From Spirochaeta cellobiosiphila DSM 17781 (GTDB lineage Bacteria > Spirochaetota > Spirochaetia > DSM-17781), in assembly GCF_000426705.1 (NCBI RefSeq), contig NZ_KE384554.1, positions 354,825-418,824 on the forward strand: a DNA stretch of 64,000 nt, read 5' to 3'. The notes beneath the pieces were generated by a model, which saw nothing but the letters and a program-made list of their open reading frames with translations, ran no database searches and was not told where the DNA came from. The position numbers were made by a program, and so were the translations under genes. Position 1 is the stretch's first letter. Each line of letters starts with the position of its first letter. Of this stretch, positions 1-3,341 are shown in pieces.

Positions 1-372
1 ATCTTCCTTTCTTGCTTTGGCCCAGGCATTTTGAGCCAAAGCTGTGGCCTTCGTCAAATCCTTAACGAGCTGACTGGACAGACGTGTTTCCTTATTATAA
101 TCTTCTTCTCTTATACCAAGAAAGGATTTTTCAAAATCATTTAATGAAGATAAATCTTTATTCGCCTGAGCGATCAATTCTGCTATCTCTGGATTTGTTT
201 TATGTTGATGGGATAAACCAGATAGAAAAGCGGCCTGATCTGCCCTTCCTTCTACAGCCCCTTCTGGCATGTAAGTTTCCTGATCCCAACCTAGTATAGC
301 TCCAATATCTTCAATAATTCGTGACTCTTTGTCTAATTCTATTAACTTTTTAACCGCTTCCACAGAATTCAC
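1..372 (-). CDS. Carboxypeptidase Taq (M32 metallopeptidase), N-terminal part only
   Basis: The reading frame is open from a GTG at 370-372 to the window edge, giving 124 codons. The translation holds the M32 N-terminal signature: an acidic helical start, then ILGWDQETYMPEGA and GRADQAAFLSGL. The HExxH zinc site lies beyond the window. An AAGGAG ribosome site precedes the GTG, and the GTG overlaps the thrS stop by one base (TAGTG), so the two genes look translationally coupled in one operon. M32 enzymes are cytoplasmic zinc carboxypeptidases that trim peptides. Family assignment is good; the gene is cut by the window edge and not visibly broken. Confidence 0.85.
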   Translation of the reverse strand, partial: MNSVEAVKKLIELDKESRIIEDIGAILGWDQETYMPEGAVEGRADQAAFLSGLSHQHKTNPEIAELIAQANKDLSSLNDFEKSFLGIREEDYNKETRLSSQLVKDLTKATALAQNAWAKARKED

Positions 373-2126
373 TATATTAACTCCTTTGTATTGATCTTAC
401 CAAGAACCCAGTTCACACTTTCTTCTAAAGGCATCCCTTGATGCTGTTCACCAGTTCTAAGACGAACACTTACTTGATTCTCCGATTCCTCCCGTTCACC
501 AAGAATGAACATATAAGGAATTTTCTCATTTTGAGCCGCCCTAATTTTAGCATTCATCCTGTTATCAGAATCATCTAATTTCACACGGATACCTGCGGCC
601 TTTAATTGAGCTGTTACCTTCTGAGCATATTCGTTAAAGTTCTGAGCTACAGGAATCACCATGACCTGAGTAGGATTCAACCAAACAGGGAAAGCTCCTG
701 CATATTGTTCAATCAATATCCCAATAAATCGCTCTAATGATCCCAATACAGCTCTATGGAGCATAACAGGAGAATGTTTATTGTCATCTTCCCCAATATA
801 AGACGCATTTAGTCTATCATTAGATGGTAAGAGGTAATCCACTTGAATGGTACCGCACTGCCAATGGCGACCTAGAGCATCGACTAAGGTAAACTCTAAT
901 TTAGGACCATAGAAAGCACCTTCTCCCTCAGCAATCTCATATTCCAGGCCAGCCACTTTGCAAGCATTGGCTAATGCTCCTTCCGACCTATCCCAAGTGG
1001 CATCTTCACCAATTCTTTTTTCAGGTCGAGTACTGAACTTAACAATTATGTTGTCATCACCAAAGCCAAAGTCTTTATACATGCTCTTTAAAAGATCAAC
1101 AAAGAGAACTACTTCATCAGCTATTTGTTCTTCTGTACAGAAGATATGGGCATCATCCTGAACAAACCCTCTCACTCTCATAATACCATGAAGAGCTCCT
1201 GAAGCTTCATTACGTGTACAACTCCCAAACTCAGCCATACGAAGAGGTAAATCACGATAGCTTTTAATCCCCTGTTTAAAAATTTCTACATGTCCAGGGC
1301 AGTTCATAGGTTTAAGAGCAAATTCTCTCTTTTCGCTCTCTGTTATAAACATGTTTTCCTTATATTTTGCCCAGTGACCAGAACGTTCCCATAGAGATTT
1401 AGGCATAACAGAAGGGGTATGAACCTCAATATAATTCTGTTCAGATAATCGATTACGTACATAATTCTGAATAGTTAGATAAATGGACCAGCCCTTGTCA
1501 TGCCAAAAGATCTGACCTGGATTTTCATCAACCATATGGAAGAGATCTAATTCTTTACCCAACTTACGGTGATCCCGTTTTTTGAGTTCCTCTAATTTAT
1601 TAAGATAAAACCGAAGCTCTTTAGCATTATTCCAAACAGTCCCATAAATACGTTGTAACATAGGTCTAGTGGAGTCACCTCTCCAATAGGCCCCAGCTAT
1701 AGACATTAATTTAATAGCCCGTGGATCAATCTGACTGGAATTCTCCACATGAGGACCTTTGCAAAGGTCTACAAAATCACCACTATGGTAGAGACTGATC
1801 TCGGCATCTTCAGGTAAGTCATTAATAAGCTCAACCTTATAAGGTTGATCAGCAAATCGTTCTAAGGCAACTTCCCGTGAAATGACTTCTTTATCAAAAG
1901 AAGCTCCCTTATTGATAATATCCCGCATTCTGTTTTCAATATCTTCAAGATCTTCTTCCTTAAGCTTTCGAGGTAGATCAAAATCATAATAAAACCCATC
2001 ATCGATAGCAGGCCCAATAGCGATCTTGGCATCTGGAAATATTTGCAATACAGCCTCTGCCATTATATGAGCAGTTGAATGCCGCTTTCGGAATATTTTT
2101 TCTTCTTTAGTTAATTTTTCTGACAT
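372..2126 (-). CDS. thrS: Threonyl-tRNA synthetase lacking the N-terminal TGS domain
   Basis: Charges tRNA-Thr with threonine in the cytoplasm and, through its second domain, hydrolyses mischarged Ser-tRNA-Thr. The 584-residue protein begins almost directly at the editing domain (HSTAH, H16 and H20, plus CKGPH). The class II catalytic core has the zinc-ligand motif MNCPGH near residue 275 and HWQCGT near 419, and an anticodon-binding domain ends the protein. The usual bacterial enzyme is about 640 residues with a TGS domain in front; that domain is missing here, as I recall for Borrelia. The start is an ATG with a GGAGAG ribosome site. Upstream lies a T-box leader with a Thr specifier, so expression should rise when uncharged tRNA-Thr accumulates. 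Confidence 0.97.
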
Positions 2127-2146
2127 ATATCTCTCCTTTTGTAGAC

Positions 2147-2206
2147 AAAAAAAGCTTCCATGTACTCCGTCCTCTTAATTAAATAAGGACGAAGGGCACA
2201 GAAGCT
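2147..2206 (-). terminator. T-box-controlled intrinsic terminator before thrS
   Basis: On the minus strand a long stem (AGCTTCTGTGCC...CGTCC paired with GGACGGAG...GGAAGCT, with one two-base internal mismatch and some G-T pairs) is followed by a run of T residues just upstream of the thrS ribosome site. It is the alternative fold to the T-box antiterminator. Confidence 0.88.
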
Positions 2207-2437
2207 CTCCGCGGTTCCACCTTTATTCAGTCCTTCTCTGTACTATAACGAAGGATACTGCACTTCATTTACCTCTATCGTTTGGTTTACGTCCCAGCAT
2301 ACTAATCAAAGTGATTCTTTAACTTTCCGTGGGCAACTCAGGAGTGGTTTTCAATCAAGTTCCTTGAAAAGGATTACAGCCTATGTCCTTTACTCTCTAG
2401 CAAGAATTCTTTGACCTACTCTTCTCCTTCATAGTCT
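2147..2437 (-). promoter_or_regulatory. T-box riboswitch leader of thrS (Thr specifier ACC)
   Basis: Reading the minus strand, the leader has the hallmark T-box elements in order: a GGAGAAGAGTA purine-rich Stem I motif, AGAGAG, a GGCTGTAATCC apical region, then GAAAACCACTCCTGAG. There the in-register specifier codon ACC (2346-2348) reads threonine. Further on is the T-box sequence AGGTGGAACCGCGG, whose TGGAACC lies at 2213-2219 and can pair with a tRNA ending UCCA. A terminator hairpin follows. Uncharged tRNA-Thr would stabilise the antiterminator and allow thrS transcription. The specifier, T-box and terminator all agree with the downstream gene, so the call is strong even without a folding run. 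Confidence 0.93.
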
Positions 2438-2444
2438 TATTAGT

Positions 2445-2473
2445 AATATGAATGGTAAAGTCTTTATTGTCAA
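2445..2473 (-). promoter_or_regulatory. Promoter for the thrS T-box leader
   Basis: A consensus -35 TTGACA (2468-2473) is separated by 17 bases from CATATT (2445-2450) on the minus strand, directly upstream of the first T-box element. Position and spacing fit sigma-70. Confidence 0.7.
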
Positions 2474-2534: not shown

Positions 2535-3341
2535 CTACTTGTAGAGTTTTTCAGGGCAAAGAAGCTCTACGGCCTTAATATGAAACATCTCGATAGAAGG
2601 ATCTGTAAAAAAAGCAGTCTCCCAGGGATTCTTATCAACAAATTCATATTGAATGGAACTAAAAGCAGGATTACTCGGGGATATTTTAAAAAGCTCACCA
2701 ATAATTATTGAATAATTCCATTCTATAGCTTTATCAAAGGTAAACTCTGGTCTGTGATCAATAGCAAAGGCCACATTTCTATCCCTATGAAGATTATGGG
2801 ATTTGAAAGACCCCTTCTGGCTTATAATGAAAATATCATCTTGTTTTGTAGAGAGGAACGCCATAACAGTAGTATGAGGTCTATCAGGAGCAGAGGTAAT
2901 AAGAACACCGAGCTTATTACGCTGAATAACAGGATCAGTATCTATGACAGGATCAATTGTACTTTCAGGAAGAGTAATACTACTTCTATTATCAACGGGA
3001 AATCGATAACCTTCCTTTCTATAGGAATCAACAACATTGTTAGAATAGAATAATTCATAATCTTCAAGTATTACTGAAATTCTTCTCTCTTCTACCTTTG
3101 TCACAATAGCTTTAACAGAACTTCGATAAACACGGAGATTGATATCGAATTCTTCTACACCAACACGGCTATCCAAATGAATGGTGATCTTTTGCCCCAC
3201 ACTATAGGGATTGGCTTTAGGAAAGATTATAACCATTCCCTCTTTGTTAAAAAGGATACCTCCAATCAAGGCTACAATCTTATTATCACAATACCCAGCA
3301 ATGATGGCATAGGATTGATTAGCGAAATAATCTTTTAACAA
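2535..3341 (-). CDS. Flavin split-barrel (pyridoxamine 5'-phosphate oxidase-like) protein with extra N-terminal domain
   Basis: 268 residues, soluble. The C-terminal part (about 140-268) begins NKLGVLITSAPDRPHTTVMAF and continues with a pattern typical of PNPOx-like FMN/F420 split barrels (strand pairs, HNLHRDRNVAFAID, then a YSIIIGE strand). The N-terminal half (about 10-115) is a separate beta-rich domain with SVGQKITIHLD and a YRKEGYRFPV stretch, faintly like a PilZ fold, but the second PilZ motif DxSxxG is not seen. The start is a TTG at 3341 with GGGAG ten bases upstream; no in-frame ATG fits better. It lies upstream of the thrS promoter. The substrate is unknown. Confidence 0.6.
   Translation of the reverse strand: MLKDYFANQSYAIIAGYCDNKIVALIGGILFNKEGMVIIFPKANPYSVGQKITIHLDSRVGVEEFDINLRVYRSSVKAIVTKVEERRISVILEDYELFYSNNVVDSYRKEGYRFPVDNRSSITLPESTIDPVIDTDPVIQRNKLGVLITSAPDRPHTTVMAFLSTKQDDIFIISQKGSFKSHNLHRDRNVAFAIDHRPEFTFDKAIEWNYSIIIGELFKISPSNPAFSSIQYEFVDKNPWETAFFTDPSIEMFHIKAVELLCPEKLYK

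Follow-up and report, generated by a model that had tools for sequence, protein, structure and literature searches.

The threonyl-tRNA synthetase gene (thrS) of Spirochaeta cellobiosiphila DSM 17781 is preceded by a standard transcriptional (class I) threonine T-box leader, i.e., a known riboswitch family in an unexpected host phylum. The element had been noticed in a preliminary description of a 64,000-nucleotide stretch of the genome (referred to as the window). Its occurrence at thrS proved to be real but not isolated, since T-boxes recur at thrS across the Spirochaetia.

The T-box leader and its predicted mode of action

The Rfam model RF00230 matches the minus strand of the window at 2441-2182 over its full length (model positions 1-219) with 106.6 bits (E 1.6e-22), exceeding the curated gathering score of 93 bits and supporting the T-box assignment of the preliminary description. 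Besides this match, no further Rfam family was found in the 64-kb window. Other synthetase genes, where additional T-boxes were to be looked for, were covered by a search of the whole genome at E <= 0.001, which yielded no second T-box. The leader and its target gene comprise the following features:

2445..2473, minus strand: promoter-like TTGACA-17 nt-CATATT (10/12 consensus positions)
2182..2441, minus strand: T-box riboswitch, RF00230, whole model (106.6 bits)
2336..2441, minus strand: Stem I with K-turn-like base, AGUA, distal AGAGA and GCUG (GNUG), from model alignment and sequence
2346..2348, minus strand: specifier codon ACC (Thr), pairing with the anticodon GGU of tRNA-Thr
2210..2223, minus strand: T-box sequence AAGGUGGAACCGCG, from model alignment
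2185..2223, minus strand: antiterminator, helix A1 (AAGG/CCUU) and helix A2 (GCGGAG/CUUCGU) flanking the UGGAACC bulge
2148..2205, minus strand: intrinsic terminator with seven U at its end, from fold and sequence
2133..2137, minus strand: ribosome-binding site AGGAG, 3' of the terminator
372..2126, minus strand: thrS, 584-aa ORF with ATG at 2126, encoding a mosaic threonyl-tRNA synthetase (ThrRS) without TGS domain

From 5' to 3', the parts follow each other as Stem I, specifier loop, Stem II, Stem III, T-box, antiterminator, terminator, ribosome-binding site and ATG; Stem I motifs, TGGAACC-containing T-box and terminator are thus in the order described before. The AGAGA and GCUG sequences of distal Stem I (AG bulge and GNUG, docking to the tRNA elbow) align with the model consensus. 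The threonine specifier was likewise recovered at the expected place (2348-2346, in the loop context GAA-A-ACC-A), and the ORF downstream scores 713.5 bits to the NCBIfam model TIGR00418 (thrS). Less can be said for the TTGACA promoter: the site exists (2473-2445), but a consensus promoter scan found one such site as compared to a mean of 3.2 in shuffled sequences, i.e., fewer than in the shuffles. Since the site count does not exceed the shuffled expectation, it is the position of TTGACA-17-CATATT, rather than its match to the consensus, that makes it a plausible promoter. Further 5' of the leader, a 268-aa ORF (2535-3341, minus strand) displays a weak, below-cut-off match of its C-terminal half to Pfam PNPOx_N (pyridoxamine phosphate oxidase).

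Both alternative states of the leader were folded, as had been recommended. The terminator stem (-19.6 kcal/mol) is far more stable than its shuffles (mean -9.2 kcal/mol, z -4.5), none of 200 being as stable. The antiterminator by itself is no more stable than shuffled sequences (z -0.8), as expected of an element stabilised by tRNA. The antiterminator strand CUUCGUCCU forms part of the 5' arm of the terminator, and the two pairings are mutually exclusive.

The tRNA genes of the genome were located with RF00005 (44 genes) and ARAGORN. They include tRNA-Thr(GGU) and two genes for tRNA-Thr(UGU), all of which carry U73 and do not encode CCA; the discriminator base U predicted from TGGA is therefore present in both tRNA-Thr species. 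The UGGA at 2219-2216 (minus strand) is complementary to the UCCA 3' end of tRNA-Thr, with U73 of tRNA-Thr(GGU) forming a Watson-Crick pair with the A.

Uncharged tRNA-Thr(GGU) very probably stabilises the antiterminator, leading to transcription of thrS at threonine shortage. In this scheme, the ACC specifier of Stem I would read the anticodon of tRNA-Thr(GGU), and the U73-C-C-A end of the uncharged tRNA would pair with UGGA in the T-box bulge. This pairing would hold the antiterminator (A1 AAGG/CCUU) and allow RNA polymerase to go on into thrS. With charged tRNA, the CUUCGUCCU strand would refold as terminator hairpin, ending transcription before the ribosome-binding site. The sequence elements, their class-wide conservation, the U73 tRNAs and the mutually exclusive pairings were observed directly; we infer from them that the tRNA is bound and its charging sensed, and where transcription actually starts and stops. 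Autoregulation of thrS by its own product is established for Escherichia coli, and the leader might, by analogy for the same gene, be an operator bound by ThrRS with merely secondary likeness to a T-box. In view of the full T-box model match, the terminator, a UGGN sequence fitting the tRNA end and an enzyme without the N-terminal TGS domain, this is extremely improbable.

Distribution and output mode within the Spirochaetia

In 40 further Spirochaetia genomes, thrS is likewise preceded by a T-box. Among 41 relatives sampled at one or two per family, 21 contain a T-box, 19 of the 22 matches being linked to thrS; scanning the entire phylum revealed T-boxes in 53 of 295 genomes, all but one of them (52/53) belonging to the same class. 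These counts are lower bounds, since stricter filters were applied in the large scans and a degenerate T-box in genome G002 was recognised only by reading the sequence. This degenerate thrS T-box (L236, AGGGTGGAATCGCG) is accompanied by a terminator and was not matched by the Rfam model at a permissive threshold. When 26 thrS loci from T-box-negative relatives were scanned with Rfam at permissive settings, no T-box was recovered, and in the Treponema- and Borrelia-type spirochaetes examined thrS is present without one.

The specifier context GAA-N-ACC is found in 41/41 inspected thrS T-boxes of the class (source genome counted), ACC being kept although the thrS leaders compared share only about 65-78% identity. 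Antiterminator pairs are intact in 33 spirochaete thrS T-boxes (A1 4/4, A2 3/3). Leaders with a changed A1 include that of genome G274, where AAGG/CCUU is altered to GGGG/CCCC in a compensatory manner. Mapping T-box presence onto the tree of the ThrRS N-terminal half requires at least 12 changes. The simplest reading is that the thrS T-box is old in the class and was lost repeatedly, with repeated gain as a possible alternative. Other strong T-boxes (102-126 bits) occur in family f12 (L002, L003, L022, L103, L104, L105), upstream of sodium/solute symporter-like, AMP-dependent synthetase-like and tryptophanase/tyrosine phenol-lyase-like genes; UAC in their specifier loops suggests tyrosine as the predicted specificity.

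The variable base of the UGGN sequence is associated with the presence of a terminator, as judged for the relatives from folds and sequence. All 31 spirochaete thrS leaders with UGGA or UGGG (wobble) possess a terminator, as compared to only two of ten with UGGU or UGGC, the other eight being devoid of it (Fisher p 4.7e-7, not corrected for kinship of the genomes). Leaders with UGGU or UGGC are scattered over about five distinct positions of the ThrRS tree, and the contrast is also apparent within a single family (UGGU without terminator in G188, UGGA with terminator in G219). The eight leaders without intact terminator are L119 (G185), L113 (G274), L109 (G304), L118 (G225), L122 (G277), L123 (G316), L124 (G188) and L125 (G306).

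Pairing between the T-box and the ribosome-binding region amounts to -6 to -15 kcal/mol in leaders without terminator and to roughly -2 to -8 kcal/mol in those with one. In case of G185, G274 and G225, the ribosome-binding site GGUAC pairs with GUACC of the T-box, and this pairing becomes weaker once the variable base is replaced by A. In the five terminator-less leaders for which the tRNA was read, the variable base forms a U-U mismatch with U73 of tRNA-Thr. Leaders with UGGU or UGGC but no terminator are thus likely, from their sequences, to represent translational T-boxes tolerating a mismatch with U73. This reading stays short of proof, because the variable base matters little or not at all for the calculated T-box-RBS pairing in G277, G188 and G304, and because the terminator hairpin persists in G277, albeit with a broken U-run.

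For the leader of S. cellobiosiphila itself, control of translation by hiding the ribosome-binding site, instead of control of termination, is very unlikely. Eight spirochaete thrS T-boxes do without a terminator, most of them with strong T-box-RBS complementarity, and provide a precedent; in the present leader, however, the ribosome-binding site is preceded by a strong terminator ending in seven U, and the T-box/RBS duplex reaches -5.3 kcal/mol as compared to -6 to -15 kcal/mol in the terminator-less set. With a terminator present and this duplex weak, it differs from translational (class II) T-boxes.

The tRNA-Thr(GGU) could be read in 38 spirochaete genomes including the source genome and carries U73 in 38/38, irrespective of whether the T-box base is A, G or U; UGGN and the discriminator base therefore do not covary strictly. 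One may speculate, with chances slightly short of even, that the threonine T-box was inherited by the Spirochaetia, being the only T-box in most genomes, and switched several times from transcriptional to translational output, whereby the UGGN base was matched to the ribosome-binding site and not to U73. In that case, the expression platform would determine a base taken to recognise the end of the tRNA, and a U-U mismatch would be tolerated.

The mosaic ThrRS and the origin of the window

The ThrRS of S. cellobiosiphila lacks the N-terminal TGS domain and scores 677 bits against the enzyme from E. coli and 515 bits against that from Staphylococcus aureus. Its catalytic core (about residues 200-490) is of a second type shared with G188 and G026 and also found in Treponema-like, planctomycete and proteobacterial ThrRS. 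The ends surrounding this core are of the common spirochaete type, which in the N-terminal editing region is clearest in the source genome and G188. The N-terminal tree pairs G188 with its family-mate G219 at 99/98 support; this pair is rejected by the catalytic core (AU p 8.6e-4), and the N-terminal part in turn rejects a grouping of all second-type cores (p 2.5e-5). Similar conflicts exist within families f32 (p 2e-68) and f13 (p 5e-41). All these p-values serve as guides, because the groups were picked after viewing sliding identities. Mosaic ThrRS loci were noted at 372-2126 (minus strand) of the window and at L124, L126, L226, L228 and L241, with support from tree tests within three families.

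Among the T-box leaders, that of G188 matches that of G219 best and vice versa, and the gene following thrS is conserved. The core between the conserved N-terminal editing and C-terminal anticodon-binding regions was therefore swapped in place, repeatedly, while the leader and both ends of the gene were retained. Descent of thrS and T-box as one cassette of single origin is ruled out, since parts of ThrRS differ in history.

The genome (3.95 Mb, 29 contigs) is 96% complete with 2.3% estimated contamination. Among its products is FlaA of the spirochaete flagellar sheath (PF04620, 257 bits), which is absent from 14 control genomes and bears out the spirochaete host proposed from the sequence. 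Moreover, genome G001 of the same class carries its T-box at coordinates identical to those in the Spirochaetales genome JAFGDJ01, placing the window in the Spirochaetia. T-boxes are classically elements of Firmicutes, and with a draft assembly of 29 contigs and the above contamination estimate, the window could in principle be a Firmicute contaminant contig, or the thrS cassette a recent acquisition, in a spirochaete bin. However, thrS is located on a 747 kb contig and is followed by a carboxypeptidase gene, an order common to four other genomes of the class, which renders a foreign contig unlikely. Moreover, ThrRS is closer to the E. coli than to the S. aureus enzyme and devoid of TGS, in its N-terminal half it clusters with other Spirochaetia, and the T-box is found across the class. 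A foreign origin of the window is thus scarcely credible; contamination and recent acquisition from Firmicutes were both discarded on these grounds.

Comparison with known T-box systems

A survey from 2008 recorded no T-boxes in six spirochaete genomes (PMC2494555), and one from 2013 gave them as confined to Firmicutes, Actinobacteria, Chloroflexi, Deinococcus-Thermus and Geobacter (PMC3766115). Neither the TBDB paper in its main text nor a review from 2020 mentions spirochaetes (PMC7778990, PMC7583486). A literature search for T-boxes in Sphaerochaeta, Treponema or spirochetes at large retrieved no relevant paper. The preliminary description, which knew of no spirochaete case, agrees with the 2008 and 2013 surveys; undescribed here means absent from the article text consulted. 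T-box control by tRNA sensing is extended to a phylum given as lacking it in these surveys, for one gene conserved in many families, which bears on whether T-boxes arose in Firmicutes with later spread or have an older origin. Furthermore, related threonine T-boxes that either have or lack a terminator form a natural series in this class, open to direct tests of what the UGGN-discriminator contact does and of how output changes between transcription and translation.

Few synthetase genes of Firmicutes are as consistently under T-box control as thrS (PMC2494555). Firmicute thrS leaders (e.g., B. subtilis thrS, RF00230) likewise contain a long Stem I, Stem III, T-box, antiterminator and terminator upstream of the same gene. 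The present leader differs in its spirochaete host, in a ThrRS without TGS that is nearer to proteobacterial ThrRS, and in being the single T-box of its genome, whereas Firmicutes have many per genome. The thrS T-box of Anaerolinea sp. (Chloroflexi, L131) also combines ACC and UGGA with thrS downstream; that genome, however, contains seven T-boxes, and its ThrRS has the other catalytic-core type. The Anaerolinea ThrRS is basal to the common spirochaete type, a position possibly relevant to where the spirochaete element came from. With the translational (class II) T-boxes of Actinobacteria, the leader of S. cellobiosiphila has the core for sensing the tRNA end in common, but differs in its long Stem I and in possessing a terminator; it is some of its spirochaete relatives without terminator that resemble the actinobacterial class II output mode.
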